Shown in pieces: positions 6,956-37,564 of a stretch of 64,000 nucleotides of DNA. How positions within the stretch are numbered: the first letter of the stretch is position 1; each line of letters begins with the position of its first letter. The notes beneath the pieces were generated by a model. That model had not been told where the DNA came from. It did no database searches and worked only from the letters and a program-made list of their open reading frames with translations. A program made the translations under genes and the position numbers. This DNA is from an uncultured Bacteroidales bacterium. GTDB taxonomy: Bacteria; Bacteroidota; Bacteroidia; Bacteroidales; Bacteroidaceae. The stretch lies in NCBI GenBank assembly GCA_902763865.1, contig CACWTR010000004.1:21946-85945 (forward strand). The letters run 5' to 3'.

Positions 6956-7043
6956 TTGCTTCATCGTGAACAAGCAATTGCACATACATGTATGTGCAAT
7001 TGCATCTACATGTATGTGCAATTGCTCCATCGCGATGAAGCAA
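6956..7043 (+). repeat. 88-bp inverted-repeat element, copy 1
   Basis: Left end TTGCTTCATCGTGA and right end TCGCGATGAAGCAA form 14-bp terminal inverted repeats with one mismatch. Inside are two 22-bp tandem units (GCAATTGCACATACATGTAT+GT and GCAATTGCATCTACATGTAT+GT) and a third partial GCAATTGC. Copies of identical length occur at 14413-14500 (same orientation) and 37477-37564 (opposite orientation). It lies in the 162-base gap between a GH2 gene and a lipoprotein gene. No open reading frame of its own is credible. Confidence 0.9.
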
Positions 7044-7061
7044 TGAACCCGACGTGGGGAC

Positions 7062-9275
7062 TCATAGCTTGACATGCGCTGTCTTCAGTCCTTTGCCTTG
7101 AACCGTGACGGTTACTCGTCCCTTCCCTCCGGTGCTCCTGACGACCAGAAGGGCTCGTCCCTTCCAGGCCTTGTGGCTTGCATCAGAGTAGCGGTCGCAG
7201 TCCTTGATGTCGGCATTGCCGAAGGCGGCAAGGACGGCGGGGCCGCTGACGGAGGCAGTCAGCTCGTTGTCGGCAGTAGGATTCAGCGTGCCCTTGGCGT
7301 CGGTCAGTTCCACGGTAATGAACGCCAGGTCCTGACCATCGGCTTTTAGCGCCGTGCGGTCTGCCTTGAGGCGGATAGTACGTGCCGGCCCTGCGGTTTG
7401 CAGGGTGACAGCTTCCTGGCCTCCCTCCGCGCGAAGCGTACCGGGCTGATAGGGTAGGGTGAAGGTAGCCATGCATTTGGCCGTTTCTTTCTCGCCGATG
7501 AGTTGGTCGTTGAGGTAGAGACGTACCCGCGGATAATGCGAATAGACTTCGACTTCGATGTCCTTGCCTTCATGCCCGGGCCAGTTCCAGCTCTCGAAGG
7601 TGGGCCACGTGCTCCACATCGTCGTCTTTACGGTTCCGTAGAAGCCGTCCGGCTCGCGCACTGCCATGTAGAGGTGTTCGCCCTCCTTGTTCCAAAGCAT
7701 CGAGCGGTAGTGGCTTACTGGTTTGCGCTGTCCGATGAGGTCGATGTCGCCGCAATAGGAAGCGTGCCAGGGGAACAGGAGATTCACCCAATGCTCGTTT
7801 GGCACGTCGCCCTCGTAGTAGTAGCGTCCGATGCCCGACTCGCCGAGATAGTCGATGGCGGTCCACACGAAGTCACCAATGACCCAAGGCTCACTCGCCA
7901 CCTTCTGGTAGTTGTTCCATGCATCGCGGGGAAAGCTTTCGGTCTGCATCATCACGCGTTCCGGCACGCGCTCGTGGTCGCCCTGCGACTTGTGGATCAT
8001 GTAGTTGTAGCCCACTATGTCGTGCTCGGCAGCCAGCGGGTCGTAGATGTCCCAATCCTGGTCCCAGGCACAGAGAGCCGAGGTGACAGGACGGTGTTGC
8101 GGGTCGAGCTGACGGCAGAGCTTGCTCAGCCTGTGGGCAGTTCTCACCACCTCGATCTTCTTTCGCTCGATGACTTCGTTACCTGTTGACCAGCAGAAGA
8201 TGCTGGGATGGTTGCGGTCTCGCAGCACCATTGCCTTGAGGTCCTCTTCCCACCATTGGTCGAAGAGCACAGAGTAGTCGAAGTCGTTCTTCTTCTCGCG
8301 CCATCCGTCGAATGCCTCGTCGATGACCAGCAGGCCCAGCTCGTCGCATGCACGCAAGAAAGTCTCCGAGGGCGGGTTGTGCGAGGTGCGGACAGCATTG
8401 AAGCCAGCCTCCTTCAGCAGCCGGACGCGCCGGAACTCGGCAGCATCAAAGGCCGCTGCACCCAGGATGCTGTTGTCGTGGTGCACACAGCCTCCGTTGA
8501 GCACGATGGGCTTGCCGTTCAGGAGCAGTCCCTTCGCGGCAGAGTACTCGATGGTTCGTATGCCATAGGTCACAGGCACGGTATCGCCCTCTGCCTCTAT
8601 CGTTGCGTGGTAGAGGTAGGGGTCGTCGGGCGACCACAGGTGAGGTTGGCTCACGTCGATGTGTTTGGATACGGTCCTGCGCGAGCCGTCGGCCTGTATC
8701 ACGTCGGCCTGTATCTCGACGTTGTGGATGTCGGGAGTGGTGACGTTGACGCTCCACTCGTCGATATAGCTTTTCCCTGTCGTCAGCAGCCAGACGTGAC
8801 GATATATGCCCGAGCCGCTGTACCAACGGCAATTCTTCTGCTGCGAATTATCTACGGAAACCTCCACAATGTTGTTGCCAGCCTTGGCGTAGGGCGTGAT
8901 GTTCACGAAGAACGGGGTGTAGCCATACGGATGTCCGCCGGCCTTATGTCCGTTGACATATACCTCGGCATTCATATAGACGCCCTCGAAGTAGAGGCGA
9001 AGCGTCTTCTCCCTGGCCTCCGAGTCATCCAGCCGGAACTCCTTCCTGTACCAACCCTTTCCGGTAGGCAGGTATGCACCGTCGTTGCCGGCAGGTGCCT
9101 CCTTGTCGAAGTCGCCCTCTATGCTCCAGTCATGGGGCAGGTTCACTGTCTGCCACTGAATGCTGTCACGTGAAAAACTCCAGTCGCTGTCGAACAGCTG
9201 CTTTCTCTCCGGCGTGGCCGCCATCATGCAGCCCATGCCTGTCAGGGCTGCAACAAAAAGAATCATGCGTCGCAT
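7062..9275 (-). CDS. GH2 glycosidase (beta-galactosidase/beta-glucuronidase-like)
   Basis: A 737-residue exported GH2 enzyme. I chose the ATG at 9275 (MRRMILFVAALTGMGCMMAA, a normal signal peptide) rather than an in-frame ATG at 9317, because the latter overlaps the end of the DUF1349 gene. The jelly roll contains NLPHDWSIEGDF and the Ig-like domain follows. The barrel holds the acid/base Glu of WSTGNEV (about residue 367) and the nucleophile Glu of MMQTESFP (about 446). A DUF4982-like segment (VRLYLNDQLIGEK) and an Ig-like C-terminal domain (LKADGQDLAFITVELTD) close the protein. It lies 7 bases after the DUF1349 lipoprotein and probably shares its promoter at 10080-10111. Its sugar specificity is not determined. 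Confidence 0.93.
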   Translation of the reverse strand: MRRMILFVAALTGMGCMMAATPERKQLFDSDWSFSRDSIQWQTVNLPHDWSIEGDFDKEAPAGNDGAYLPTGKGWYRKEFRLDDSEAREKTLRLYFEGVYMNAEVYVNGHKAGGHPYGYTPFFVNITPYAKAGNNIVEVSVDNSQQKNCRWYSGSGIYRHVWLLTTGKSYIDEWSVNVTTPDIHNVEIQADVIQADGSRRTVSKHIDVSQPHLWSPDDPYLYHATIEAEGDTVPVTYGIRTIEYSAAKGLLLNGKPIVLNGGCVHHDNSILGAAAFDAAEFRRVRLLKEAGFNAVRTSHNPPSETFLRACDELGLLVIDEAFDGWREKKNDFDYSVLFDQWWEEDLKAMVLRDRNHPSIFCWSTGNEVIERKKIEVVRTAHRLSKLCRQLDPQHRPVTSALCAWDQDWDIYDPLAAEHDIVGYNYMIHKSQGDHERVPERVMMQTESFPRDAWNNYQKVASEPWVIGDFVWTAIDYLGESGIGRYYYEGDVPNEHWVNLLFPWHASYCGDIDLIGQRKPVSHYRSMLWNKEGEHLYMAVREPDGFYGTVKTTMWSTWPTFESWNWPGHEGKDIEVEVYSHYPRVRLYLNDQLIGEKETAKCMATFTLPYQPGTLRAEGGQEAVTLQTAGPARTIRLKADRTALKADGQDLAFITVELTDAKGTLNPTADNELTASVSGPAVLAAFGNADIKDCDRYSDASHKAWKGRALLVVRSTGGKGRVTVTVQGKGLKTAHVKL

Positions 9276-9282
9276 ATCTGTT

Positions 9283-10017
9283 TTATTCCTTATCTGGTTG
9301 CTGTCCGTTGTGGGCAAGCCACATGCATTCTGTTATCTTCATGTCGGAAAAGACGGCAGTGAAGGACGATTCCTCAGGCGAGCAGGCGTAGATGCCGAAA
9401 CTGATTTCGCCTGCTCCGGCATGCATGTGGCAAATACGCATCTGGCTGAAGTTCTCGCCATCGGCAGAGCACTCGATGCAGTAGTCGTCCTGTCGGCGCG
9501 AGAAGCGATACCACATAGTCTTGACATCGGCAGGGATGGCAGTGGTAGCCCAGTCAGAGTAGCCATTGTTGGTGGCGACGCTGCCGAGGTGCTGGAAGTT
9601 GTCGTTCTCGTATTCGACAGAACCCTTCAGCCAGTTCTCGCTGTCAAGGTACATTACGATGCCGCACTGGTCGAAGCGGTGATGGCTGCCGGTGAAGTCG
9701 GTCTTGACCACGAAGCTGAAGAACTTCTCGCTGGTCTTCATTTGCAGGACAGGTGCGTTGTCGTTCTGGAAATGGTAGTAGGTACGTTGCCACAAGTCCG
9801 TGTGTGGAGCGGTCGTAATGCGGATGGTGTCGTCTTTCATCTCGCATGCCGCAGGCTCCCTTGTCCATTGCAGGTCATCGAAGTTGATGCGGCCTCCATT
9901 CGAGAGGGCCGTCTTGACATCGTCCGAAGTTGGGGTGTTTTGTTCTTTAGCTTCCTGCTGGCAAGCTGAGAGCATGCCGAGGAAAAGCAGGTAGAGACAG
10001 GTTTTTGTCAGTTTCAT
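9283..10017 (-). CDS. DUF1349 (concanavalin A-like fold) lipoprotein
   Basis: A 244-residue lipoprotein; MKLTKTCLYLLFLGMLSACQ gives a lipobox with Cys at about residue 19. The body (about 40-235) matches the DUF1349 pattern known from yeast-type 'regulation of enolase 1' proteins, a beta-sandwich: LQWTREP, WQRTYYHFQNDNAPVL, FDQCGIVMYLDSENWLK, and SFGIYACSPEESSFTAVFSD near the end. Such proteins are thought to bind or cleave carbohydrates, but activity is not established, so a glycan-binding role is inference. It is the first gene of the minus-strand run into the GH2 enzymes and has a good upstream promoter. Confidence 0.87.
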   Translation of the reverse strand: MKLTKTCLYLLFLGMLSACQQEAKEQNTPTSDDVKTALSNGGRINFDDLQWTREPAACEMKDDTIRITTAPHTDLWQRTYYHFQNDNAPVLQMKTSEKFFSFVVKTDFTGSHHRFDQCGIVMYLDSENWLKGSVEYENDNFQHLGSVATNNGYSDWATTAIPADVKTMWYRFSRRQDDYCIECSADGENFSQMRICHMHAGAGEISFGIYACSPEESSFTAVFSDMKITECMWLAHNGQQPDKE

Positions 10018-10079
10018 GAATTATGTTTTATTGGTTAGTTTCGTGTGGTTTTGGCAGCAGAAAGCGTGCAAATCCATTA

Positions 10080-10111
10080 CAAAGTTATGTATAACTCCCT
10101 TCTGGGCCAAA
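10080..10111 (-). promoter_or_regulatory. Bacteroidetes-type promoter for the DUF1349/GH2 operon
   Basis: Read on the minus strand: TTTG (10111-10108), 20 bases, TAACTTTG (10087-10080). This matches the known primary sigma consensus of Bacteroides (TTTG, 19-21 bases, TAnnTTTG). It places transcription start about 60 bases before the ATG at 10017. Confidence 0.7.
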
Positions 10112-10200
10112 TTTCCTGACTTAAAATCTTCTGTTTATTGCCTAAATTGAATAAATTTGCTCTTTTTGCGGCACATTACAATTTATTCCGAGGCAAAGAA

Positions 10201-10231
10201 TTTGATTGCTGAGATAAAAATGGTAAATTTG
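10201..10231 (+). promoter_or_regulatory. Bacteroidetes-type promoter for the HD-domain gene
   Basis: TTTG at 10201-10204, 19 bases, TAAATTTG at 10224-10231: an exact consensus match. Because transcription would begin near 10237, it rules out a longer reading frame from 10157 and supports the ATG pair at 10268/10271. Confidence 0.75.
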
Positions 10232-10267
10232 CATTGCCGTTGTGAGACAGCAGCGGACATATCTGAT

Positions 10268-10951
10268 ATGATGAAAACACACTATACGGACATCAATCCG
10301 GAACTCCGCGTCTATGTGGAGGAAAACATCATTCCCCGTTACGATGAATTCGACAAGGCTCACCGGCGCGAACACGTGGCAATGGTCATCAGCCAAAGTC
10401 TGGATTTGGTTGTGCAGACGGGAACGGACCCCGACATGGCGTATGCCGTTGCCGCATATCACGATACGGGGTTGTGCGAAGGCCGCGAACATCACCACGA
10501 GGCATCGGCACGGATTCTGAGGGCCGACCCGAACCTGCGGCGCTGGTTTACAGAGGAGCAGATAGACATCATGGCGGATGCTGCCGAGGACCATCGTGCC
10601 TCGTCTGACCGCGAACCGCGTAGCATCTACGGAAAAATCGTGGCCGAGGCGGACCGATTTATCGATGCCGACACAGTCATCTGCCGAACCATTCAGTTCG
10701 GCCTCGACCATTCTCCTGTTCCCGGTCCCGACACGTCGCCCGAAGCAACCCGAGAAGCGCACTACAGGCGGACGTTGTCGCACCTCCGCGAAAAGTACGG
10801 TCGGGGCGGATACTTGCGTTTGTGGTTCGAGGACTCGCCTAATGCCCGTCGCCTCCGTCACTTGCAGGACATCATCGATGACGAGGCGCACCTGCGCCAA
10901 CTATTCAATCATTATTATAATATAATGTATAAGGAAAATGAGAAAGATTGA
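10268..10951 (+). CDS. HD-domain phosphohydrolase-like protein
   Basis: About 227 residues, cytoplasmic, no signal peptide. The HD superfamily metal ligands are visible: histidine in DKAHRREH (about 32-36) and the HD pair of AAYHDTG (about 65-66). EGREHHHEAS (about 72-80) and a downstream AEDHRAS carry further histidines and an Asp. The C-terminal part, with GPDTSPEATREAHY and NARRLRHLQDI, is helical. HD proteins of this size hydrolyse nucleotides or other phosphoesters; the substrate is not evident. The start is at two adjacent ATG codons (10268 or 10271), supported by the promoter at 10201-10231; an upstream ATG at 10157 is before the predicted transcript start. The 3' end overlaps the CotH-like gene by 14 bases in another frame, so the two are probably translated together. 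Confidence 0.85.
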   Translation: MMKTHYTDINPELRVYVEENIIPRYDEFDKAHRREHVAMVISQSLDLVVQTGTDPDMAYAVAAYHDTGLCEGREHHHEASARILRADPNLRRWFTEEQIDIMADAAEDHRASSDREPRSIYGKIVAEADRFIDADTVICRTIQFGLDHSPVPGPDTSPEATREAHYRRTLSHLREKYGRGGYLRLWFEDSPNARRLRHLQDIIDDEAHLRQLFNHYYNIMYKENEKD

Positions 10952-13622
10952 TTTCGGCAGACTGCTCCTGATGGCTTTCCTTTGCTCAGTTCTTCCCTTG
11001 CAAGGCCTTCACGCAGAAAAGCTGGAAAGGAAGCTGGGGGGCACAGTGATTGGTTCAGACGCCAATTCGCGTTCCTGGACAGGATTGGACTTAGGCTCTC
11101 CTCATGTCATCATCCGCGTAGGATGGTGTCGCAAGGACGACTCCGGCAGCACCGTCCTGGGGTTGTTTGAAGGGTCCAATCGCGAAGACTTCATGGATGC
11201 CATCCCACTTTACATGATAACACAGGAGGGTGCGACGGGTCAGTTCACGTATGCCGACGTGCCGGTCACTCGCGGCTTCCGATATGTCCGCTGGTGTGCA
11301 CCCGCAGGCTCCGACAGCAGTGTTGCCGAGGTGGAGTTCTACGGCTATGCAGGTGCGGGCAACGACGGCAGGTTCTATCAGCTGACGAACCTGCCCACGC
11401 TGTCCTACCACACCTATAGCGGACAGGAGCCATACGACAAGGTGCACGAACTGGAATCCGAGATGTGCATCATCTATGACGGCGGAACCCGCCTGCAGGA
11501 ATACCCGATACTGGTCCGGGAACGCGGAAACGGCTCCCGCTATGAGCTTTTCAAGAAGCGTCCCTATCGCGTGAAGTTCAACGACGGCAAGTCTCACTAC
11601 ATGCTCAAGGACTCTCCGCTGCAGAGCAAGGCCAAGGCGAAGAAGTGGACTCTTATCCCAAATTGGCGCGAAAAGACCCTGATGCGCAACAACATTGCCT
11701 TCGAGATGAGCCGGCGGCTTGGCCTCAGCTATACGCCCTGGATTCAAAACGTAGATGTCATCGTGAACGGCGAATACAAGGGCAACTATCAGTTGTGCGA
11801 CCAGGTGACGGTTGACCCGAACCGCGTTGACATTACTGACATGCAGTCCGGCGACGTTGATGCCTTGAGCATCACCGGCGGTTATCTGCTGGAGATCACC
11901 GGTCCGGGAGAGACTTATCATTTCTATTCGACACGGGGCAACATCCCTGTCGATGTCAAGTCGCCGGACGATGACGACATCGTTTCCGCGCAGTTCTCTT
12001 ACATCCGCGATGCCTTCAACGACATGGAGGCCCGCCTGTGGGCTTCCAACTACAAGCATCCCGAGAAGGGCTACCGCAGCAGGCTCGACCTGGAGAGTTT
12101 CCTTCGTCTCTTCCTCGTCGGCGAATTTGCGGGGAACAACGATGCAATGTGGAGCATCTACCTCTACAAGGAGCGCGGCGACGACCTGTTTCGTTTCGGT
12201 CCCGTCTGGGACTTCGACTTGTCGATGGACAACGACCAGCGCACCTATCCGGCCAACGGGAAACCGGACTGGCTTTACAACTATGGCGCCGCCGTCACGG
12301 GCATTCGCGACTTCGTGAGCCGCATCCTTTCCGACCCCTATGCTGTCGAGACGCTCAAGAGCATCTGGGGCGACATGCGCGAGAGCGGCGCCTTCAGCCA
12401 GGACAGTCTTTGGGCTTTCGTCGATAGCTTGGGTGTCGTGCTCGACGAGTCGCAGAAGCTGAACTTCACCCGATGGGACAACCTGGGCAAGTTCCTTACG
12501 CTGCAGCAGTTTGCGCCCGGCACGTACCAGGGCGAGCTCGACATCGTCAAGAACTACCTGGCGGAACGCATCAAGTGGATAGACAAGAAGCTGGGCTACA
12601 AGGATTACGACGATGTCAATCCGGAGGACACGTTGTTCGTCATCAGTTCGCCGGAGGACCTCCTGGCCTTCCAGCGTGCCGTCAACGACCAGAACCTATC
12701 CGCCCTGAACGCACGTCTGGAGGCTGACCTCGACCTGAGCGCCGTCAGCCCCCAACTGGAGCCTATCGGCACGACGCAGATTCCCTATACGGGCTGCTTC
12801 GAGGGCGGCGGTCACACCATCTCGGGCCTGACGATGTCCTATTCCACCAACTATGTTGGACTCTTCGGCGTCGTCAGCGGCGGAGCCGTCATCCGCAATT
12901 TTGTGCTCGACGAAACGTGTTCCATCAAGGGCAATTCCTACGTCGGCATCATCGGAGGTTCGAATGGCGGCGGTACTGTCACGATGGAATGCCTGGGCAA
13001 CGAAGGCTCCGTAGTAGCTATGGAACGTAATGCCGGCGGCATCTTCGGCTGCAACATGCGGGCATCCGCCACGCCCATCTTCCTCAACTGCTACGTGACA
13101 GGGCCGGTGAAGGGAGCGCGGGAAAGCGGCCAGATTACCGGCTATGCGGGTAACGGACAGGCCTACAACTGCTATGCCAGCGGCACGGTGGAGGGTGTCT
13201 ATTACCAGGACATGAGCGATGCGATGCTACGCGGCAAGCCGACGTCGTCGAACTGCTATTCCATCTATCCCGACAGGAATGCCACGCAGGTCGATGAGAG
13301 TCAGGTGTCGGGCGGTGAGCTATGCTACTTGCTCAACGAACCGGATGCGGACGCGCCCGTCTGGTTCCAGACGCTCGGACAGGACAGCCATCCCGTCCTG
13401 GATGCCACTCACGGCAAGGTGCTGCTTGCGTCCGACGGCAGCTACACGAATGACGACATCGATTTCCTTGCTGCTCCTTTCCTCGCGGACAACTTCGAGG
13501 CCTATTCCCTTTCGGGTGTCCGGCTGAACGGTGCCCGCCAGCAGTGGCCGACAGGCTTGGGGAAGGGCATACGGATTCTCCGCTCCCGCGACGGCAGAAG
13601 CCGCAAGGTGCTGATGCGTTAG
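10938..13622 (+). CDS. Secreted CotH-kinase-domain protein with GLUG-like repeats
   Basis: An 894-residue exported protein. The signal peptide ends near LHA (about residue 26). Residues 30-140 look like a discoidin-like beta domain (WTGLDLGSPHVIIRVGWC). The CotH domain spans about 180-560, with ILVRERGNGS, KKWTLIPNWREKTLMRN, VNGEYKGNYQL and GPVWDFDLSMDND. These are the motifs of CotH protein kinases, whose Bacillus members phosphorylate spore coat proteins; Bacteroidetes members are surface or secreted and their targets are unknown. From about 600 to 760 there are GLUG-like repeats (YVGLFGVVSGG, YVGIIGGSNGGG). The last 40 residues (YSLSGVRLNG...GKGIRILRSRDG) resemble short Por-type tails. It overlaps the HD-domain gene upstream and converges with glutathione peroxidase. 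Confidence 0.88.
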   Translation: MRKIDFGRLLLMAFLCSVLPLQGLHAEKLERKLGGTVIGSDANSRSWTGLDLGSPHVIIRVGWCRKDDSGSTVLGLFEGSNREDFMDAIPLYMITQEGATGQFTYADVPVTRGFRYVRWCAPAGSDSSVAEVEFYGYAGAGNDGRFYQLTNLPTLSYHTYSGQEPYDKVHELESEMCIIYDGGTRLQEYPILVRERGNGSRYELFKKRPYRVKFNDGKSHYMLKDSPLQSKAKAKKWTLIPNWREKTLMRNNIAFEMSRRLGLSYTPWIQNVDVIVNGEYKGNYQLCDQVTVDPNRVDITDMQSGDVDALSITGGYLLEITGPGETYHFYSTRGNIPVDVKSPDDDDIVSAQFSYIRDAFNDMEARLWASNYKHPEKGYRSRLDLESFLRLFLVGEFAGNNDAMWSIYLYKERGDDLFRFGPVWDFDLSMDNDQRTYPANGKPDWLYNYGAAVTGIRDFVSRILSDPYAVETLKSIWGDMRESGAFSQDSLWAFVDSLGVVLDESQKLNFTRWDNLGKFLTLQQFAPGTYQGELDIVKNYLAERIKWIDKKLGYKDYDDVNPEDTLFVISSPEDLLAFQRAVNDQNLSALNARLEADLDLSAVSPQLEPIGTTQIPYTGCFEGGGHTISGLTMSYSTNYVGLFGVVSGGAVIRNFVLDETCSIKGNSYVGIIGGSNGGGTVTMECLGNEGSVVAMERNAGGIFGCNMRASATPIFLNCYVTGPVKGARESGQITGYAGNGQAYNCYASGTVEGVYYQDMSDAMLRGKPTSSNCYSIYPDRNATQVDESQVSGGELCYLLNEPDADAPVWFQTLGQDSHPVLDATHGKVLLASDGSYTNDDIDFLAAPFLADNFEAYSLSGVRLNGARQQWPTGLGKGIRILRSRDGRSRKVLMR

Positions 13623-13639
13623 TGGCGTTGGTGCCCCTC

Positions 13640-14257: not shown

Positions 14258-14296
14258 AGGTTATTCTCTTTGTGTATTATGCGTTGCTTCCGCATG

Positions 14297-14327: not shown

Positions 14328-14412
14328 GAAACACACAGTTTTTTGCTCGCAATGCTGTCGTTTTCAGCTGAGGACGTCACGAACCGGAAGCGCACACGAC
14401 GCGTTGTGTCCG

Positions 14413-14500
14413 TTGCTTCATCGTGAATAAGCAATTGCACATACATGTATGTGCAATTGCATCTACATGTATGTGCAATCACTCCATCGCGATGAAGCAA
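14413..14500 (+). repeat. 88-bp inverted-repeat element, copy 2
   Basis: Same length and orientation as copy 1: TTGCTTCATCGTGA at 14413-14426, two 22-bp units with the ACATGTAT core, and TCGCGATGAAGCAA at 14487-14500. The third partial unit reads GCAATCAC instead of GCAATTGC, as in copy 3. It lies in the divergent gap between the peroxidase and GMP synthase promoters. That gap (14258-14686) contains both promoters and this element; I see nothing else in 14501-14615. Confidence 0.9.
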
Positions 14501-14615
14501 CCAATAGGACGCGTGCCTCATCCGGAATCCAAACGTGCGAGCATGTCTTTGCACGTGGCAGCAGGAGCGCCTCAAAACTTTTTTCAGTATTATCAGCTCT
14601 GCACGCCCGAATTAT

Positions 14616-15670: not shown

Positions 15671-15674
15671 CACT

Positions 15675-16885: not shown

Positions 16886-17989
16886 ATGGACAGGAACGAG
16901 CAAATCATACGTACCAGCTACGTCGGCGTGGCGGCAAACGTACTGCTGGCTGCATTCAAGGCTACGGTAGGCTTGGCTGCCAGTTCGGTAGCCATCGTGA
17001 TGGATGCCGTGAACAACTTGACTGACGTGCTCTCTTCGGTTATCACCATCGTAGGCACAAAACTGTCGGAACGTCCGGCTGACCACGAGCATCCCTTTGG
17101 TCACGGACGCATAGAGTACTTCAGTGCCATCATCATTGCCATCATTGTCCTGATGGCAGGCGTAGGCTCGTTGGTGGAGTCTGTGAGAAAAATCGTTCAC
17201 CCCACCGAACCGCACTACACCAATGCGACGCTGACGGTCATCATCGTAGCCATCGGTGTGAAGCTGCTCCTGGGGCACTACGTGAAAAGGACAGGCGAAA
17301 GGCTGAAGAGCGACGCCCTCATCGCAAGCGGAGCAGATGCCCTGTTCGATGCTGTCGTCACGCTTGCCACACTCATCTCTGCCGGCATCATGATGCTCTG
17401 GAACGTCAACCTCGACGGCATCTTCGGCACGCTCATCTCGCTGGTTATCCTGAAGGCTGGCTATGAGATGCTCTCTTCGCCCATCAACGAACTCCTGGGC
17501 AGTCGCATCTCTTCGGAGTTCGTGGCACAATTGAAGAATGAAGTAATGAGCTTCAAGGACGTGCACGGCGTGTTCGACATCATCATGAACAGTTATGGCC
17601 CCGACACCATCATCGGGTCGCTCCACGTCAACGTGCCCGACACGATGTCTGCCCGCGAGATTCATCGCCTCACGCGCAGCATCTCGTCCCATATTTACAA
17701 CAAGTTTCACGTCATCCTCACCGTTGGTATCTATGCCATCAATACCGACACCAAGGGGACCGGCAGGTTGCAACACGAAGTCATGGACTTTGCTGCCAAT
17801 CATGCCGACGTGATGCAAGTGCACGGATTCTTCTATTACCCCGAGCACAACCTTATCACTATTGACGTCGTGCCCGAAGAGACTGTAAAGGACGGACAGA
17901 GATTTGCTGATACGATGGAGGCTGACTTGAAACAACGGTTCCCCGACTACAATTTCTCCATCATCGTGGACCATAACTACAGCGAGTAG
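16886..17989 (+). CDS. Cation diffusion facilitator metal transporter
   Basis: A 367-residue CDF-family transporter that exports divalent metals (zinc, iron or manganese) from the cytoplasm. The membrane domain has about six segments in residues 12-210. The first metal site is formed by DAVNNLTD (about 34-41) with HPFGHGR (about 71-77) close behind. The second site sequence is DALFDA in place of the more usual DxxxD spacing of zinc-selective members, so metal preference is uncertain. The cytoplasmic C-terminal domain (about 215-300) has DVHGVFDI and SLHVNVPD typical of the family, and is followed by an extra ~65-residue segment with QVHGFFYYPEHN. It is 56 bases after the symporter gene and converges with the HAD phosphatase. 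Confidence 0.9.
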   Translation: MDRNEQIIRTSYVGVAANVLLAAFKATVGLAASSVAIVMDAVNNLTDVLSSVITIVGTKLSERPADHEHPFGHGRIEYFSAIIIAIIVLMAGVGSLVESVRKIVHPTEPHYTNATLTVIIVAIGVKLLLGHYVKRTGERLKSDALIASGADALFDAVVTLATLISAGIMMLWNVNLDGIFGTLISLVILKAGYEMLSSPINELLGSRISSEFVAQLKNEVMSFKDVHGVFDIIMNSYGPDTIIGSLHVNVPDTMSAREIHRLTRSISSHIYNKFHVILTVGIYAINTDTKGTGRLQHEVMDFAANHADVMQVHGFFYYPEHNLITIDVVPEETVKDGQRFADTMEADLKQRFPDYNFSIIVDHNYSE

Positions 17990-27176: not shown

Positions 27177-27258
27177 ATTTTCACGTCATGAAAATCTATT
27201 TTCATGACGTGAAAATTAATTTTCAAAGCGTGAAAATTGATTTTCAAGCTTTGAAAAT
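27177..27258. repeat. Array of four 19-bp palindromes with an exact 21-bp period
   Basis: Four units start at 27177, 27198, 27219 and 27240. Each has the form ATTTTCA-N5-TGAAAAT, with N5 = CGTCA, TGACG, AAGCG and AGCTT, and spacers CT, TA and TG. Units 1 and 2 are exact reverse complements of each other; units 3 and 4 are reverse complements with one mismatch. The 21-bp period is two turns of B-DNA. It lies in the convergent gap between mazG and the Spy-like gene, so it is not upstream of either. Confidence 0.92.
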
Positions 27259-30219: not shown

Positions 30220-30252
30220 ATTCTGAATGCTTTAGGGGGTAAAAGTGTTGTC

Positions 30253-31356
30253 TCAGCTCTTCAAGCCTACAATCTGCGTAGGCGGCAGCTGGGCTTTCCT
30301 CCGGTCCGTCTCTGTGACGACTCGGGCAGCAAGCTGCAGGAAGGCCTGACCGTTGATGCTGGCCGGGTCGGTGGCAGAGGGAACACCGCTGTCACCACTC
30401 TCGCAGATGTCCTGAACGAGGGGTATCTGTGCCAGGAGCGGGAGTTGCATCTCTTCTGCCAGTTCCTTGACGCCCTCCTGTCCGAAGAGATAATAGCGCT
30501 CGTCGGGGTGGCGGGCAGGCGTGAACCAGGCCATGTTCTCGACCAGTCCCAGGATGGGGACGCCCACTTTCTCGTTCCGGTACATGTCAATGCCTTTGCG
30601 GGCATCGGCCAGCGCCACCTGCTGCGGCGTGCTGACGATGACGGCTCCCGTGATAGGAATAGTCTGGACAAGGGTCAGGTGGATGTCGGACGTGCCGGGC
30701 GGGGTGTCGAGTATAAAGTAGTCGAGCTCCCCCCAGTCGGCATCGCCAATGAGCTGCTTGAGGGCATTGGAGGCCATTCCGCCGCGCCACATGATGCCTT
30801 GCTCGGGATTCACGAAGAAGCCGATGCTCAACATCTTGACGCCATACTTCTCTTCCGGAATAATGAGGTCGCGACCATCAACGTTCTTGCTGTAGGGCCT
30901 GGCATCTTCCATTTGGAACATCTTAGGCACGGAGGGCCCGAAGATGTCGCAGTCGAGCAGTCCGACTCGCATACCCAGCCGCGCCAGAGCAACGGCGAGG
31001 TTGACGGCCACGGTGCTCTTGCCCACACCGCCCTTGCCGCTGGAGACGGCAATGATGTTGCTGACGCCCGGCAACAGGTCTGGCAGGTCCGGACGAGGTG
31101 CCTGGAGGGTGCGCGTCTTGATTTCCACTTCGGCATCCTTGCTGGCATAGGCATGGATGGCAGCCTCGGCTGCTTTCACCACGCTGCGCATGAAGGGGTC
31201 GGTAGGTTTGTCGAAGACAAGTGTGAAGCTGACGCTGAGGCCGGCAATGCGTATGTCGTCATCTACCATCTGCATCTCCACGATGTTCTTGCCCGTTCCG
31301 GGATAGCGGACCGTGGCAAGAGCATCGAGGATGAGTTTAGGATATAGAGCTGTCAT
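30253..31356 (-). CDS. Mrp/ApbC-family P-loop iron-sulfur carrier ATPase
   Basis: A 367-residue cytoplasmic protein. An N-terminal DUF59/MIP18-like domain (about 1-85) precedes a deviant Walker A NTPase domain with SGKGGVGKST (about 106-115), LLDCDIFGPS, a switch region FILDTPPGTSDIHL, and VENMAWFTP. Mrp/ApbC/NBP35 proteins carry Fe-S clusters to apo-proteins. I see no CxxC pair in the C-terminal part, which some members use to hold the cluster, so cluster binding may differ. It lies 18 bases after the M13 peptidase and 33 bases before the GH16 pseudogene. Confidence 0.93.
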   Translation of the reverse strand: MTALYPKLILDALATVRYPGTGKNIVEMQMVDDDIRIAGLSVSFTLVFDKPTDPFMRSVVKAAEAAIHAYASKDAEVEIKTRTLQAPRPDLPDLLPGVSNIIAVSSGKGGVGKSTVAVNLAVALARLGMRVGLLDCDIFGPSVPKMFQMEDARPYSKNVDGRDLIIPEEKYGVKMLSIGFFVNPEQGIMWRGGMASNALKQLIGDADWGELDYFILDTPPGTSDIHLTLVQTIPITGAVIVSTPQQVALADARKGIDMYRNEKVGVPILGLVENMAWFTPARHPDERYYLFGQEGVKELAEEMQLPLLAQIPLVQDICESGDSGVPSATDPASINGQAFLQLAARVVTETDRRKAQLPPTQIVGLKS

Positions 31357-31374
31357 GATGAGAGAATGTGTGCC

Positions 31375-33429
31375 TTACCAGATTGTTACTCGTTCTTCAA
31401 CAGGGATGAACATGGGGTCAGCCTCGGTGATGCCGAAAGCATCGTACCAGGCATCGATGTGCGGCATCTGACCGTTCACGCGCCACATGCCCAGCTGGTG
31501 CGGGTCGCTCTTGACGCGCTTCTGAATCTCCTCGTCGCGGATGTTCTGCCCCCAGACGTTGGCATAGGCCAGGAAGAAGCGCTGCTCGGGAGTAAAGCCG
31601 TCCACGACGGGCAGCGGATGCTGTGCCGTAGCGTTCTTGAAGGCTTGGAAGGCGACCATCAGTCCTCCGTGGTCTGCCATGTTCTCGCCGAGGGTGAGGG
31701 AACCGTTGGCATGCAGGCCAGGCAGCACCTCGATGCTGTCGTGGAAGGCACGCATCACCTGTATGCGCTCTTCGAAGCGTTTCGTGTCTTCCTCGCTCCA
31801 CCATGTGACGAGGTTGCCCGTCTTGTCGTACTTGCTGCCTTGATCGTCGAAGCCGTGGGTCATCTCATGTCCGATGACCACGCCGATGGCTCCGTAGTTG
31901 AATGCATCGTCGGCACTCATGTCGAAGAAGGGCGGCTGCAGAATGCCTGCGGGGAAACAGATTTCGTTGGTCGTGGGGTTGTAGTAGGCATTGACCGTCT
32001 GCGGCGTCATGTACCACTCGTCGCGGTCAACAGGCTTGTTGAACTTGGTCCTGACCATGTCCTTCAGTTCCCATTCGCCTACGGCAAGCATGTTGTTCAG
32101 GTAGTTGTCGCCAATCTCGAGGTCGCTGTAGTCCTTCCACTTGTTGGGATAACCCACCTTGACGTAGAAGGCATCGAGCTTCTCGCGTGCCACCTTCTTT
32201 GTCTCGTCGCTCATCCAGTCCTGCACGTCGATGCGCTCTCCGAGGGCCACTTGCAGGTTCTTGATGAGTTTCTCCATGCGAGCCTTTGCTTCTGGCGGGA
32301 AGTACTTTGCGACATAAAGCTGTCCGAGAGCTTCGCCCAGGCCGCCTTCGACGGCAGCAACGGCACGCTTCCAGCGGGGACGATCCTCCTGTTTGCCGCT
32401 CATCACCTTGCCGTAGAAGCCGAAGTTGAGGGCGCGGCTCTCGTCGTCGATGAAGGACGAAACCATATCGATGGCATGCCAGAGATAGAGGTTCTGCAGT
32501 GCTTCGGGTGTCTCTTCCTTCAGGACTTTCTCCACTTCATGAATGGCGAGAGGCTGGCCGAGGCATACTTCCTTCACGCCTTCCATACCGAGGTTCTGGA
32601 AGAAGCCATCCCAATCGATGCCGGGGAACTGCTCTTTCAACTCGGCGTAGGAAAGCTTGTTGTAGTTGGCCTCAGGGTCGCGCAGCTCGGTGCGGCTCTT
32701 GCTGGCCACGGCAATGCGAGTCTCGATGCGCAGGACATCCTGACTGATGCGCAGGGCATCCTTTTCGGAAAAACCAGAGTGCAGGCAAAGGTCGGAGATG
32801 TACTTCTGATAGGCTGTGCGAATTTCCTGCGTCCTTGGGTCGTTGTCAACGTAATAGTCCTTCTGGCCGAGTGTCAGACCACCTTGAACGATGTTCACGA
32901 GGTTGTTCTTGGAGTCCTTCTCGTCGGCACCGATATACATGGCGAAGAGTCCGGGGACGCCTTGCCTCTGCATGCGAGGCCAGACCTCATCGAGCCAGTT
33001 CTTGGTGATTTCGGGTGAGCACTGGTAGCCGTCGCAGAGCAGGAAGCCTTCCAGTGCACCCCAGTAGTGCTCGTTGAGGTTCACGCTGTCCATAGCACTG
33101 TTGTAGAGGTCGGCAATCTTCTGAGCAATGGAGCCTTTCTCGTTCTGTTGTGCTGCCACGCTATCGATGAGTGAGCGCAGGCGCTTGTTGTTGTCTTCCT
33201 GCAGCTGGTCGAAGGAACCGAAGCGGCTGTACTCAGCCGTCAGGGGATGAGCCTTTTGCCAACCGCCGGTTGCATACATGTAGAAGTCCGTGCCGGGCCG
33301 GTAGGTGGAGTCGAGGTTTGCAAGGTCAATGCCGGAACTCTGCTGATTGCTTCCCGGCGTGCAGGCAGCAGCCAATGCTGTCAGGGCGAAGGCTGCCAAG
33401 AGGTGATTTGTAGTCATAAGCTTATACAT
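31375..33429 (-). CDS. M13-family zinc endopeptidase (PepO/neprilysin-like), lipoprotein
   Basis: A 684-residue lipoprotein: the signal region holds LAAFALTALAAACTPG with a lipobox Cys. ATG at 33429 or 33417 could both start it. Zinc ligands are in VVIGHEMTHGFDDQG (HExxH about 521-525) and the third in LGENMADHGGL (about 581). NAYYNPTTNEICFPAGILQPPFFD, the M13 substrate motif, precedes the zinc site. The enzyme cleaves peptides of up to about 40 residues at the outer or periplasmic side. It follows the ABC-F gene by 7 bases. A 550-codon open frame on the other strand is a shadow. Confidence 0.95.
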   Translation of the reverse strand: MYKLMTTNHLLAAFALTALAAACTPGSNQQSSGIDLANLDSTYRPGTDFYMYATGGWQKAHPLTAEYSRFGSFDQLQEDNNKRLRSLIDSVAAQQNEKGSIAQKIADLYNSAMDSVNLNEHYWGALEGFLLCDGYQCSPEITKNWLDEVWPRMQRQGVPGLFAMYIGADEKDSKNNLVNIVQGGLTLGQKDYYVDNDPRTQEIRTAYQKYISDLCLHSGFSEKDALRISQDVLRIETRIAVASKSRTELRDPEANYNKLSYAELKEQFPGIDWDGFFQNLGMEGVKEVCLGQPLAIHEVEKVLKEETPEALQNLYLWHAIDMVSSFIDDESRALNFGFYGKVMSGKQEDRPRWKRAVAAVEGGLGEALGQLYVAKYFPPEAKARMEKLIKNLQVALGERIDVQDWMSDETKKVAREKLDAFYVKVGYPNKWKDYSDLEIGDNYLNNMLAVGEWELKDMVRTKFNKPVDRDEWYMTPQTVNAYYNPTTNEICFPAGILQPPFFDMSADDAFNYGAIGVVIGHEMTHGFDDQGSKYDKTGNLVTWWSEEDTKRFEERIQVMRAFHDSIEVLPGLHANGSLTLGENMADHGGLMVAFQAFKNATAQHPLPVVDGFTPEQRFFLAYANVWGQNIRDEEIQKRVKSDPHQLGMWRVNGQMPHIDAWYDAFGITEADPMFIPVEERVTIW

Positions 33430-33436
33430 TATTATA

Positions 33437-35335
33437 TTATATATATTTTTCCCATTCTTCTTCAGCTTGCTTGAGCTGTGTTTTCAGTCGGCCATGTTTT
33501 TCGTAGAGCGTCACGTCCTGACTGCCTTCCGGTGTTGACATCTGCTCTTCGAGGATGCGGATGGCAGCTTCGAGCTGTGTCACCTTCTCCTCAGCTTCCT
33601 GCAGAGCCTTCTCGCGCTTCTTCTGTTCGCGGGCCAGTGCTTTCTGTTCGGCATAAAGGAGCCCTCCTCCAACCTCTGCCCGAGGAGGGAGGCTTTCGCG
33701 GCGGTTCTCCCCTCTGCGCGGAGAGGGGTCCGTGGTGTGGCTATTCAGGTACTCGTAGATGCCGCCGAGGTGCTCTCGCACTTTACCACCACCGAATTCA
33801 TAAACCTTTGTGACGAGGCCATCGAGGAACTCGCGGTCGTGGCTCACGACGATGACGGTGCCGTCGAAGTCACGTATGGCAGCCTTGAGCACGTCCTTCG
33901 AGCGCATGTCGAGATGGTTGGTCGGCTCGTCGAGGATAAGGCAGTTCACCGGTTCGAGCAGGAGTTTTATCATTGCCAGTCGCGTCCGCTCGCCTCCGGA
34001 AAGGAACTTCACCTTCTTGTCTCCGGCTTCACCTCCGAACATGAATGCCCCGAGGATGTCGCGGATTCTGAGGCGGATGTCGCCCCGTGCCACACGGTCG
34101 ATGGTGTCGAAGACAGTCAGTTCCCCGTCGAGCATCTGTGCCTGGTTCTGTGCGAAGTAACCGATCTGCACGTTGTGGCCCACTTTTAGTTCGCCGTCGA
34201 AAGGTATTTCGCCCATGATGCACTTGACGAGTGTTGTCTTACCCTCGCCGTTCCGTCCGACGAATGCGACCTTTTCGCCTCGCCTGATGGTGAGGTTCAC
34301 ACCTTTGAAGATGCAGTGGTCGCCGTAAGCCTTGCTTACTTCGTTGCAGATGACGGGGAAGTCACCGCTCCGCATCGAGCACGTGAACTTGAGGTTCAGG
34401 GCACTGTTATCGACCTCATCCACTTCGATGGGTACAATCTTTTCCAACTGGCGTATTTTCTGCTGGACTTGTATGGCTTTTGTTGCCTGATAGCGGAATC
34501 GTTCTATGAACGCCTTTGCATCGGCTATCTCCCTTTGCTGGTTCTCGAGGGCCCTGAGCTGCTGTTCGCGCCGCTCGGCATGAAGGGTGACGTACTCGTC
34601 GTACTTGACTTTGTAGTCGTAGATGCGTCCGCAGGATATTTCTATTGTCCGGTTTGTTACGTTGTTTATGAATGCCCGGTCGTGGCTGACCAGCACTACG
34701 GCAGCGGCACGTGTGGAGAGGAAGTTCTCGAGCCACTGTATGCTTTCTATGTCGAGATGGTTGGTGGGCTCGTCGAGCAGCAGCACGTCGGGGTGCTGGA
34801 GCAGGAGCTTTGCCAGTTCGATGCGCATGCGCCAGCCTCCGCTGAATTCGCTCGTGGGGCGGTCAAGGTCTTCCCGCTTGAAGCCAAGTCCCTGCAGGGT
34901 ACGCTCCAGCTCTGCCTGATAGTTCATGCCTCCCATCATCTGTAGTCTTTCGCTCTGATGGCTGAAGCGCTCCACGAGTTGCATGTATGCTTCGCTTTCA
35001 TAGTCCGTTCTTTCCGAGAGCTGTGCATTGATGTCTTTCAGCTCGTCCTCCATCTCGGTGATATGTTCGAAGGCTCGTTCTGCTTCTTCCCTGACGGTTC
35101 GCTCGTCGGTGAGCTTCATGACCTGTGGCAGGTAGGCGATGACGGTGTCGCGCGGGACGCTGACGGTGCCGGCTGTAGGCTGTTGCAGTCCTGCTATGAT
35201 TTTCAGCATCGTGCTCTTGCCGGCACCGTTCTTGCCGACCAGCGCGATGCGGTCGTGGTTGTTTATCACGTAGCTGATGTCCGTGAAGAGTGGTTTGGCA
35301 CTGAATTCAACGCTTAGGTTGTCGATTGATATCAT
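33437..35335 (-). CDS. ABC-F family ATPase (ribosome-associated type)
   Basis: A 632-residue cytoplasmic protein with two ABC domains and no membrane segment. The first has Walker A GKNGAGKST (about 35-43), signature FSGGWRMR and Walker B LLLLDEPTNHLD. The second has GRNGEGKTT, FLSGGERTRLAM and LILDEPTNHLDM. The linker between them is the charged P-site tip region (about 240-300), and a coiled coil ends the protein (about 560-632), as in Uup/EttA-type proteins that act on translating ribosomes. Residues about 535-560 (TDPSPRRGENRRESL...) are encoded by a G/C-rich palindromic cassette that looks inserted. It lies 76 bases after the ProX-like gene. Confidence 0.94.
   Translation of the reverse strand: MISIDNLSVEFSAKPLFTDISYVINNHDRIALVGKNGAGKSTMLKIIAGLQQPTAGTVSVPRDTVIAYLPQVMKLTDERTVREEAERAFEHITEMEDELKDINAQLSERTDYESEAYMQLVERFSHQSERLQMMGGMNYQAELERTLQGLGFKREDLDRPTSEFSGGWRMRIELAKLLLQHPDVLLLDEPTNHLDIESIQWLENFLSTRAAAVVLVSHDRAFINNVTNRTIEISCGRIYDYKVKYDEYVTLHAERREQQLRALENQQREIADAKAFIERFRYQATKAIQVQQKIRQLEKIVPIEVDEVDNSALNLKFTCSMRSGDFPVICNEVSKAYGDHCIFKGVNLTIRRGEKVAFVGRNGEGKTTLVKCIMGEIPFDGELKVGHNVQIGYFAQNQAQMLDGELTVFDTIDRVARGDIRLRIRDILGAFMFGGEAGDKKVKFLSGGERTRLAMIKLLLEPVNCLILDEPTNHLDMRSKDVLKAAIRDFDGTVIVVSHDREFLDGLVTKVYEFGGGKVREHLGGIYEYLNSHTTDPSPRRGENRRESLPPRAEVGGGLLYAEQKALAREQKKREKALQEAEEKVTQLEAAIRILEEQMSTPEGSQDVTLYEKHGRLKTQLKQAEEEWEKYI
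33658..33732. repeat. G/C-rich palindromic cassette inside the ABC-F gene
   Basis: Plus strand contains CCCTCCTCCAACC...GAGGAGGGAGG (33662-33692) and CCCCTCTGCGCGGAGAGGGG (33709-33728), two stem-loops in a row. It adds about 25 residues in frame between the second ABC domain and the coiled coil. Similar cassettes stand at 48234-48290, 49134-49164 and 55381-55446. Confidence 0.7.
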
Positions 35336-35411
35336 AGTGTGAGCCGCTAAAGTTGTTCGGCTTTCTTCTTATTATATATAATGTGTATGTTGTTTCCGCG
35401 TGGAATGCTTC

Positions 35412-35963
35412 TCAATAGAGTTGAATGTATTCGTAGGTGTTGCCGACGGCAGAGAGGTATCGCTCGAAGTCGTCGAGGGCGATGACGACTGTGCCGCGGC
35501 AGTCGTTGGGGTGGAAGGATAGTGTCTTCCTGCTCGGGTCGGGGTAGTTGCTGTCGTCCAGAAGTGCTGCATCGAGGAAGAGGTGGACGTGGTGCTCCTG
35601 GTCGTTGATGAGTCCGAAGGGAGAGACGCTTCCGGGCTCGAGTCCGAGGTATTTCATCATCCTTTCGGGCGAGGCGAAGGAGAGTTTGCCGCACGACGGT
35701 TTGCCTTGCGCCTGGAGTGCTTGCTTGAGCCGTGCTTCGAGGTCGTGGATGTCGAGGTCGTGGTCGCAGTGGAAGCAGACGAGATAGTGCTGGTTGCCCT
35801 TGTGGTTGCGCATGAAGATGTTCTTGCAGTGGACGGAGCCGTCATCCTTCCACCATCGCTTGGCCTCCTCGATGGTCTTGCCTTCGGGATGGTTGTAGCA
35901 GGAGAAGGGTATGCCGTGTTCCTTGAGGTAGTTCAATACTTTGTCTTGTCTCTCTGTAGTCAT
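35412..35963 (-). CDS. YbaK/ProX-type aminoacyl-tRNA deacylase
   Basis: About 183 residues. I use ATG at 35963 (MTTERQDKVLNYL) because a frame from 36017 would overlap the DUF721 gene by 38 bases and its extra residues do not look conserved. The fold is that of YbaK/ProX/PrdX editing proteins: HGIPFSCYNHPEGKTIEEAKRW, then CKNIFMRNHKGNQHYLVCF, GKLSFASPERMMKYLGLEPGSVSPFGLIND and VHLFLDAALL. These free-standing enzymes hydrolyse mischarged Ala-tRNA(Pro) or Cys-tRNA(Pro). Lys in the HCKNIF segment is the likely catalytic residue. It lies 16 bases after DUF721. Confidence 0.9.
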   Translation of the reverse strand: MTTERQDKVLNYLKEHGIPFSCYNHPEGKTIEEAKRWWKDDGSVHCKNIFMRNHKGNQHYLVCFHCDHDLDIHDLEARLKQALQAQGKPSCGKLSFASPERMMKYLGLEPGSVSPFGLINDQEHHVHLFLDAALLDDSNYPDPSRKTLSFHPNDCRGTVVIALDDFERYLSAVGNTYEYIQLY

Positions 35964-35979
35964 GTCTTGGTGAGGTTGC

Positions 35980-36270
35980 TTAGTGGAAATTGACATCGCT
36001 GATGACGTATGAGCCAACGCTGTCGTTGAGTTTCTTCGCGATACGCTTGTGTTCCATCATGAGGTTCTGCCTGAGGGGTGCACTGGCCAGCCTGACGTGC
36101 AGCTGTCCGTCGCGGACATAGACCTGTCGGGTGTAGCGGTTGATGGTTTCGCCCATGACTTCCGCCCATGCCTGGGTGATGCGGTACTCCAGCAAGGGTG
36201 TCTCGAGTCCTTCCTTACGCAGGAATGCCAGCAGGACGTCGCGCATCGGTTGTACCTTGGTGTAAATCAT
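35980..36270 (-). CDS. DUF721/DciA-like protein
   Basis: A 96-residue protein of the DUF721 family; FLRKEGLETPLLEYRITQAWAEVMGETI and LHVRLASAPLRQNLMMEHKRIAKKLND are typical. Family members with this KH-like fold (DciA) help load the replicative helicase in bacteria without DnaC. Its start overlaps the recF stop by 4 bases, an arrangement common in Bacteroidetes, so a link to DNA replication or repair is likely. Confidence 0.9.
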   Translation of the reverse strand: MIYTKVQPMRDVLLAFLRKEGLETPLLEYRITQAWAEVMGETINRYTRQVYVRDGQLHVRLASAPLRQNLMMEHKRIAKKLNDSVGSYVISDVNFH

Positions 36271-37364
36271 GAGCTGATGCCTCCCTTCTCCACGATGAAT
36301 ATCTTGCTGTCGCTTCCCGTCGAGGCCAGGATGCCGTCGAGGTGGTCGCGGTTCGTGTCGGTGATGAAGATTTGCCCGAAGCGGTCTCCGCCCACCAGTT
36401 TCACGATTTGTTCCACTCGCTCTGCATCGAGCTTGTCGAAGATGTCGTCGAGCAGGAGCAGGGGAGTCGTGCGTGAGCCAGTTCTGCAGAGGAAGTCGAA
36501 CTGGGCCATCTTCAGGGCAATCAGGAATGTTTTGCTTTGTCCCTGCGAGCCTTCGCGACGTACGGGATAGCCGTTCTGCATCATCTCGAGGTCGTCTTTG
36601 TGTATGCCGTGTAGGGTGTAGCCGACGGCTCGGTCCTTGAAGCGCTGGCCGGTGAGCTGTTCGAGCAGCGGTCCGCGTTGCAGGTGCGAGACGTAGTGCA
36701 GTTCGACTTCTTCGTTGCCTGCGGAGATGCGGTTGTAGAACTGCTGGAAGATGGGGATGAGTTCGGAGATGTATTCACTGCGCTTGCGGAAGATGTACTC
36801 CCCTTCGCGCGACATCTGTTCCTCGAAGATGCGGAAGACTTCTGGGTCCGGTTCCTCGTCCTGCTTCAGCATGACGTTGCGTTGTTGCAGGGCTTTGTTG
36901 TAGCGTATCAGCGAGTCCGTGTAGGCGGGGTCGTATTGGCAGATGACCATGTCGATGAAGCGTCGCCGCTCCTCGCTGCCGCCCGTCACCAGAATCTGGT
37001 CGGCAGGCGACACCATGACGAGGGGAATCAGCCCGATGTGTTCCGAGATGCGGCGGTAGGCTTTCTTGCCCCGCCTCACCACCTTCTTCTGTCCTGTCTT
37101 CAGCCCGATGTGGATGTCTTCGGGGGTGCCGTCCTCGTGCTCGTAGAGACCTTGCAGGGACATGAACTCACTTCCATGCCTTACGCACAGATGGTCGATG
37201 CTGCTGCTGTAGCTGCGGCAAAAGCTCAGGAAGTGGATGGCATCCAGGACGTTTGTCTTTCCCTGCCCATTCCCGCCGATGAAGCAGTTCAGCTTCGCAG
37301 AGAAGTGTAGCTCGGCCTCCGAAATGTTCTTGTAATTGAATATGGTTAGGTCTGTCAGTCTCAT
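36267..37364 (-). CDS. recF: DNA replication and repair protein RecF
   Basis: A 365-residue SMC-like ATPase that helps load RecA at gaps with RecO and RecR. The start at 37364 (MRLTDLTIFNYKNI) matches the family; a longer frame from 37385 runs into the promoter. Walker A is FIGGNGQGKTNVLDAI (about 31-46), the signature is REGSQGQSKTFLIAL, and Walker B is LLLLDDIFDKLD. Length fits the family. Downstream overlap with DUF721 is 4 bases. The promoter box ends only 8 bases before the ATG, so the leader is very short. Confidence 0.96.
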   Translation of the reverse strand: MRLTDLTIFNYKNISEAELHFSAKLNCFIGGNGQGKTNVLDAIHFLSFCRSYSSSIDHLCVRHGSEFMSLQGLYEHEDGTPEDIHIGLKTGQKKVVRRGKKAYRRISEHIGLIPLVMVSPADQILVTGGSEERRRFIDMVICQYDPAYTDSLIRYNKALQQRNVMLKQDEEPDPEVFRIFEEQMSREGEYIFRKRSEYISELIPIFQQFYNRISAGNEEVELHYVSHLQRGPLLEQLTGQRFKDRAVGYTLHGIHKDDLEMMQNGYPVRREGSQGQSKTFLIALKMAQFDFLCRTGSRTTPLLLLDDIFDKLDAERVEQIVKLVGGDRFGQIFITDTNRDHLDGILASTGSDSKIFIVEKGGISS

Positions 37365-37372
37365 TTCAGCTG

Positions 37373-37403
37373 CAAAAGTACACAAAAACGCACAAAACTC
37401 AAA
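37373..37403 (-). promoter_or_regulatory. Bacteroidetes-type promoter for the recF run
   Basis: On the minus strand: TTTG (37403-37400), exactly 19 bases, TACTTTTG (37380-37373). It would begin a transcript that could run through seven closely spaced genes to 29410. Confidence 0.75.
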
Positions 37404-37476
37404 GGAAATCGTCCTTTTTATTTAGAGTTTGAGGGCTTGAAGAAGTTATTCGCCCCGGCACGTCGCGTCGTGTTGA

Positions 37477-37564
37477 TTGCTTCATCGCGATGGAGTGATT
37501 GCACATACATGTAGATGCAATTGCACATACATGTAGATGCAATTGCTTATTCGCGATGAAGCAA
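37477..37564 (-). repeat. 88-bp inverted-repeat element, copy 3 (opposite orientation)
   Basis: TTGCTTCATCGCGA (37477-37490) and TCGCGATGAAGCAA (37551-37564) are exact 14-bp inverted repeats. Between them are two identical 22-bp units (GCACATACATGTAGATGCAA+TT). On the minus strand it matches copies 1 and 2, including the asymmetric CTCCA end. It lies in the divergent recF/TPR gap. Confidence 0.9.

Follow-up and report, generated by a model that had tools for sequence, protein, structure and literature searches.

What kind of element are the three 88-bp inverted-repeat sequences scattered along a 64,000-nucleotide stretch of contig CACWTR010000004.1 (hereafter the window), from the genome of an uncultured Bacteroidales bacterium? 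The original prediction, made from the letters of this stretch, suggested a non-autonomous mobile element of constant length with 14-bp terminal inverted repeats, either a miniature inverted-repeat transposable element (MITE) or a sequence akin to the repetitive extragenic palindromes (REPs), and allowed for a protein-binding site instead. We find that the three belong to a large, mostly intergenic family of short arrays, which has expanded independently in several species within one group of gut bacteria. The explanation that we favour, with about as much weight for it as against it, is that the arrays are a non-coding, non-autonomous, hairpin-forming interspersed repeat whose core is copied or homogenised and whose units are then turned over.

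All three copies lie at the predicted positions and measure 88 bp, the first two on the forward strand and the third on the reverse, and their described parts are present: 14-bp inverted ends, two inner units with a ACATGTAT core, GCAATTGC, a CTCCA end and partly alike outer flanks. The anatomy reads otherwise than as an element with termini. Each copy divides exactly into four tandem 22-bp imperfect palindromes, starting with TTGC (or TCAC), ending with GCAA and joined at GCAATTGC or a near form, with two main unit types, TTGCTTCATCGCGATGAAGCAA and TTGCAYMTACATGTATGTGCAA; the 14-bp repeats are actually part of the ordinary outer units. The repetition is beyond chance: TTGCTTCATCGYGA, at up to two mismatches, has nine matches in the window against 1.18 expected, eight of them inside the three arrays, and GCAATTGC has nine against 1.47, seven of them inside. 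Either strand of each array is predicted to form one long hairpin, the six folds (three arrays with flanks, both strands) lying 6.4 to 11.0 standard deviations below those of dinucleotide shuffles.

This genome (2.91 Mb in 75 contigs, 84% complete) is far from holding three copies alone, a state that would have spoken against the prediction, as would a match to a named family: 51 distinct arrays were read in it, and Rfam at its gathering score returned nothing for the window and five array loci. Constant length holds for the three window copies but not across the genome, where 44 arrays have three units (66 bp) and only seven have four (88 bp); three of those seven are in the window. These figures follow the reassignment by eye of L016, L021 and L023, as three-unit arrays with a degenerate neighbour, from an automatic tally of 41 and 10, and the finder required 22-bp spacing with at most two mismatches per junction, so that arrays bearing insertions or deletions would escape it. 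An independent check comes from the half-site CGATGAAGCAA, which has 85 and 82 matches on the two strands against 1 and 0 for a control. Judged by eye, 99 of the first 100 of these 167 matches lie within arrays and the remaining one stands alone, and those that cluster are spaced in multiples of 11; no longer element bounded by the same 14-bp ends was seen.

Outside the core, similarity extends about 16 bp to each side, with weak columns at positions 19-20 and little further out (41 arrays), and the consensus of these arms is itself a 22-bp palindrome in phase with the core. The two halves of an arm show no pairing covariation (0.447 observed against 0.460 shuffled, z -1.1; 82 arms), and hairpin covariation within arms was accordingly rejected. 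Position 2 tends to be of opposite type in the left and right arms of one array, G on one side going with C on the other in 28 of 41 arrays (permutation P 0.007), and in these 28 the core points one way relative to the arms in 14 and the other way in 14; arms differ weakly and have no fixed orientation relative to the core. Nine arrays carry one identical 66-bp core within unrelated flanks. Pairs with identical cores are more alike than other pairs at arm positions 1-4 (81% against 68%), slightly so at positions 5-16 (59% against 55%), and at background beyond (31% against 33% at positions 17-30, 30% against 31% at 31-60). Because identical cores thus stand in flanks that soon fall to background, it seems to be the core, and not a longer unit, that is copied or homogenised here.

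Crude picking of open reading frames places the 51 arrays in 19 divergent, 11 convergent, 19 co-directional and 2 undetermined gene contexts. An open frame of at least 90 codons touches 23 of them in one such picking, and in a second an open frame overlaps 12 by more than 20 bp; some of these frames are upstream gene extensions and others may be true gene ends, and because of them we call the arrays intergenic in the sense of mostly so. The six proteins encoded beside the window arrays are unrelated to one another: GH2, glutathione peroxidase, GMP synthase, a RecF-like protein, a TPR protein and one without a match.

How widely is the family spread? The pattern GCAATTGC-N14-GCAATTGC is matched in 23 of 101 genomes of the same genus, nine of them with at least six matches, over a range from none to 123, whereas its backward control is matched in one; some of the single matches are by sequence not of the array family. 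Across a sample drawn from the whole family, matches occur in 12 of 399 genomes: in 7 of the 34 that belong to the genus, and in 5 of the 365 that do not, each of these five having one or two. Record titles, among the matches listed, name rumen Prevotellaceae, Bacteroidaceae and Bacteroidales genome bins, along with chance matches in unrelated bacteria. Carriage by viruses was considered and rejected: of 33 IMG/VR stretches holding the pattern, none resembles the family at its first match. The centres of the units depend on the species (ACATGT, TCATGA or CGCG) while the 22-bp geometry stays the same, spacing being itself a search criterion.

The internal grammar of the arrays was compared with that of two relatives, G104 (50 arrays read from 79 pattern matches) and G019 (45 from 123), with which loci of records JAFUGG and CAMKTM were pooled on agreeing match positions and duplicates removed by sequence. 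In G104, 36 of 48 three-unit arrays have a unit 3 that exactly reverse-complements their unit 1, the matched pairs drawing on ten distinct unit-1 sequences, one of which accounts for 22 of the 36. Perfectly palindromic units are absent there (0 of 152; 0 of 144 in three-unit arrays, against 14.5 expected from a reshuffling of the right halves at each position, the expectation used throughout). G019 avoids them too (3 of 137; 3 of 129 in three-unit arrays against 14.1), with unit 1/3 matching in 12 of 43. Neither trait is universal, the pooled remaining genomes showing matching in 12 of 92 arrays and perfect palindromes in 6 of 304 units (6 of 276 in three-unit arrays against 7.3).

The conserved flank is longer in G104 than in this genome. 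Thirteen G104 copies, selected by eye because their arms look alike, have parts of a repeat surrounding the array in common; with the arms used to set the direction of each copy, the most frequent middle unit runs one way in five and the opposite way in three, the remaining five having other middle units or four units. A search with one of the thirteen gave eight listed matches, itself included, that reach query base 314 or beyond of 361. At G104 loci including L372, L390 and L402 the array sits near one end of a repeat of up to about 250 bp. In several copies of that repeat the other end lies, as read by eye, shortly upstream of a gene with what we take to be a TAnnTTTGC-like promoter. The genes beside the G104 arrays, judged by eye from their open frames, are also unrelated to one another. 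Three contigs start inside an array: C8 and C9 in G104, and C44 in G019. At L348, the start of contig C5 of G104, an array stands between arms forming a 71-bp, 98.6% inverted repeat at the contig end, which may be an assembly artefact.

The same spacing recurs in the window in sequences of other kinds. We scanned it for dyads at regular intervals, comparing steps 9-13 with six shuffles. At step 11 the scan picks out arrays 1-3 and a fourth array with GGCC junctions, which scores 25 against shuffle maxima of 20-22; steps 9, 10 and 13 gave nothing above their own shuffles in the window. Step 12 marked one place, 15308, with a score of 23 against 20-21 in the six shuffles. A fifth, weaker array of the GGCC family is absent from the places marked by the lattice scan and folds no better than shuffles. 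A word common to the fourth and fifth arrays has 70 and 55 matches in the genome at up to two mismatches (control, 2 and 0), often 22 bp apart in runs of up to eight units. About 34 GGCC places occur in the first 100 of these 125 matches, where single matches with two mismatches may be chance; a chain finder kept six arrays with 23 units, too few for the palindrome-avoidance test. The arm that closes at least one GGCC array (G000:C7:7729) resembles the arms of the GCAATTGC arrays, so that cores are perhaps exchangeable between like arms, as these few cases suggest. An AT-rich array of TTTTCA-N5-TGAAAA quasi-palindromes (four window matches against 0.01 expected) is possibly the same phenomenon; no such array was seen in the other loci of this genome examined (385 kb, overlaps counted repeatedly). 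The window also holds two 9-bp tandem arrays, CACGAATTA three times at 62080-62106 and TAATTCGTG three times at 62134-62160, the second the reverse complement of the first.

Table 1. Positions in the window of the arrays and of their arms
Feature	Position	Strand	Description
Array 1	6956-7043	+	Four 22-bp units: 6956-6977, 6978-6999, 7000-7021, 7022-7043
Array 1, left degenerate arm	6940-6955	+	Arm profile and arm table
Array 1, right degenerate arm	7044-7059	+	Arm profile and arm table
Array 2	14413-14500	+	Four 22-bp units: 14413-14434, 14435-14456, 14457-14478, 14479-14500
Array 2, left arm	14397-14412	+	Arm profile and arm table
Array 2, right arm	14501-14516	+	Arm profile and arm table
Array 3	37477-37564	-	Four 22-bp units, running in the opposite direction to arrays 1 and 2
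Array 3, arm adjoining the CTCCA end	37461-37476	-	Arm profile and arm table
Array 3, other arm	37565-37580	-	Arm profile and arm table
Fourth array	44870-44979	.	Five 22-bp steps, the final one degenerate; joined at GGCC, with ACGCGT and CTCGTGAG as centres; sequence unrelated to arrays 1-3
Fifth, weaker GGCC-family array	61636-61745	.	Repeat spacing 44 and 22; found through profile scan
AT-rich array	27178-27257	.	Quasi-palindrome TTTTCA-N5-TGAAAA, present four times with a period of 21; units 1 and 2 are reverse complements of each other

How might such arrays arise? On the explanation that we favour, imperfect 22-bp palindromes, usually three and at times four in tandem, make up a core between degenerate 22-bp arms, and the four-unit arrays of the window, as single strands, would each form one long hairpin. 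What is copied or homogenised in this genome would be that core and not some longer unit, presumably by an enzyme that acts in trans and recognises the hairpin; once placed, units would be gained by duplication, lost and turned over, for which slippage together with template switching at the hairpins is the simplest route. The idea of a non-autonomous element is retained here to the extent that high copy number, positions mostly between genes, both orientations, scattered loci, species-specific expansion and identical cores in unrelated flanks fit a short repeat of that kind. The uneven copy number between genomes, the unrelated neighbouring genes, the strong predicted folds, the unit 1/3 matching in G104 and the middle parts lying either way round relative to the arms also speak for the explanation. 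So does array 2, beside guaA, which has no counterpart in the stretches taken from 20 relatives, 19 of which hold at least 453 bases upstream of guaA and one only 114, too few to tell.

Several observations weigh against this explanation. Identical cores could also arise by selection or gene conversion. No convincing target-site duplication emerged in 34,300 offset and length tests on each of three sets (48, 49 and 45 arrays), the best rows having 3-7 matching arrays. No empty site was found among relatives too distant for the comparison, their gene matches, among those listed, being 66-86% alike and gene order differing at the two loci tried. At the guaA locus none of 20 relatives has the glutathione peroxidase gene in the stretch that precedes guaA, so that gene order is not kept. 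At the GH2 locus the neighbour was not found in the three relatives that have the GH2 gene. No mobilising enzyme was found, in a survey that did not search for DDE transposase genes or list insertion sequence (IS) elements. Some G104 arrays are embedded in a larger repeat, of at most about 250 bp, and the copied unit is then not the same everywhere. This genome, moreover, departs from the grammar of G104: unit 1/3 matching is found in only 4 of 40 arrays, against 36 of 48, and perfect palindromes make up 35 of 152 units, or 29 of 120 in three-unit arrays against 17.9 expected, above the shuffle.

Could the geometry, rather than any one sequence, define the element? We raise this tentatively, as a possibility to which we would give less than half our weight: dyads 11 bp apart in asymmetric 22-bp quasi-palindromes would be the constant part, unrelated cores would sit in like arms within one genome and take one another's place from species to species, and an enzyme or a spreading DNA-binding protein would read or make the lattice. 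The core types would then be GCAATTGC with ACATGT, CGCG or TCATGA centres, GGCC and, perhaps, the 21-bp AT-rich form, and the avoidance of perfect local palindromes in some species would favour a single long hairpin or a directional unit.

The main rival to copying through the hairpin, a protein-binding reading that the original prediction also raised and that we judge rather unlikely, is that the dyads, recurring every 11 bp along the same side of the helix, are a platform for a spreading dimeric protein, such as a nucleoid, gyrase, segregation or regulatory factor, so that sequence drifts and geometry does not. In its favour, step 11 of steps 9-13 is the one that finds the window arrays despite their unrelated sequences, and stretches of this genome, G104 and G019 hold 28, 21 and 19 step-11 lattices with none at steps 10 or 12, although only the contrast between steps counts here, as these 68 come from stretches chosen for arrays and all have GCAATTGC-like junctions. 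The arms, too, keep the 22-bp phase without pairing covariation, as expected of a binding site and not of a hairpin. By contrast, the GCAATTGC form is unmatched in 78 of the 101 same-genus genomes, which would make the function dispensable or met by other sequences, and the mixed gene contexts and the lack of a candidate protein also argue against a binding platform.

That the arrays act as RNA, their transcribed hairpins serving as terminators or messenger RNA stabilisers, or as promoters near genes, appears improbable. The predicted RNA folds are strong on both strands, and promoter activity is reported for segments of BrickBuilt, a MITE to which we return (PMC4596501); arrays nevertheless occur in all gene contexts, which does not indicate a terminator role, and have neither an Rfam match, in the window and five array loci, nor hairpin covariation in their arms. 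Least probable of all is a classical MITE moved by a DDE transposase through its 14-bp inverted ends, for which inverted ends, high copy number and both orientations speak, and against which stand the missing target-site duplications, half-sites of which 99 among the first 100 listed lie inside arrays, lengths in multiples of 22 and ends that are ordinary units.

As partners, Y1 transposases of the REP-associated (RAYT) kind were examined and rejected. They are matched in 41 of the 101 same-genus genomes (E 0.001) but do not track the arrays, with no match in five of the nine genomes having at least six array matches (G005, G017, G019, G062 and G072, bins 89, 80, 62, 70 and 80% complete). The Y1 gene of this genome, which is RAYT-like, lies just upstream of the window (L288; G000:C4:17302-18074), and within its 3.3-kb locus it is bordered on either side by CCCTGGG repeats of ordinary appearance, with no GCAATTGC array there; on this evidence the arrays are not REPs of the usual RAYT sort. 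A GGCC array of about eight units stands some 290 bp from the Y1 domain match, and a link between that array type and the Y1 gene is conceivable. The joined outer arms, tried as an insertion target, were likewise set aside: they have one window match, at 17564-17587, with three mismatches and in a long open frame (0.05 expected; 4 of 100 shuffles with at least one).

Comparison with known repeats places the arrays beside several systems. We do not file them as MITE, REP, BOX or BrickBuilt members, because for each a defining feature that was tested is missing here. REP, the bacterial interspersed mosaic element (BIME) and REPIN are short imperfect palindromes, often clustered, mostly intergenic and uneven in copy number between species (PMC3733652, PMC2817692), all of which the arrays share. 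They differ from the REP/RAYT system in lacking a GTAG or CGTC tag at the foot of the palindrome, their units reading TTGC...GCAA or near forms (the arm positions that might read GACG are able to in at most 27 of 82 arms), and in the Y1 evidence given above. BOX of Streptococcus pneumoniae, which is interspersed and has predicted stem loops, sets distinct end modules, A and C, on either side of tandem inner modules whose number varies; terminal repeats and target duplications are reported for it (PMC3049150). The arrays are likewise modular, interspersed and predicted to form hairpins; unlike BOX, they show no target duplication, and their inner modules are 22-bp palindromes.

BrickBuilt, from Porphyromonas gingivalis, also of the Bacteroidales, is intergenic, with 19 copies in one strain, and consists of a 23-nt repeat in tandem, without spacers, between a leader and a tail, the repeat number varying among copies and the terminal repeats resembling those of IS elements (PMC4596501). 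Like it, the arrays are a multicopy short tandem repeat between flanking parts, mostly between genes and variable in unit number; unlike it, the period is 22 bp, each unit is quasi-palindromic, three units are the rule and no IS partner was found, IS elements not having been listed. The 23-nt consensus itself, sought in the window at up to three mismatches, has no match there. At the least, then, the arrays are an abundant repeat class that lies where assemblies break and for which we found no description in the literature searched, which is not proof that none exists. If their geometry is kept while sequences turn over, they would be a sign of some activity, in the processing or the binding of DNA, by which phased dyads are read, and a single genus with both array-rich and array-free species would offer a natural comparison for finding its gene. 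In construction they appear closest to a BOX or BrickBuilt set of modules, or to a BIME.

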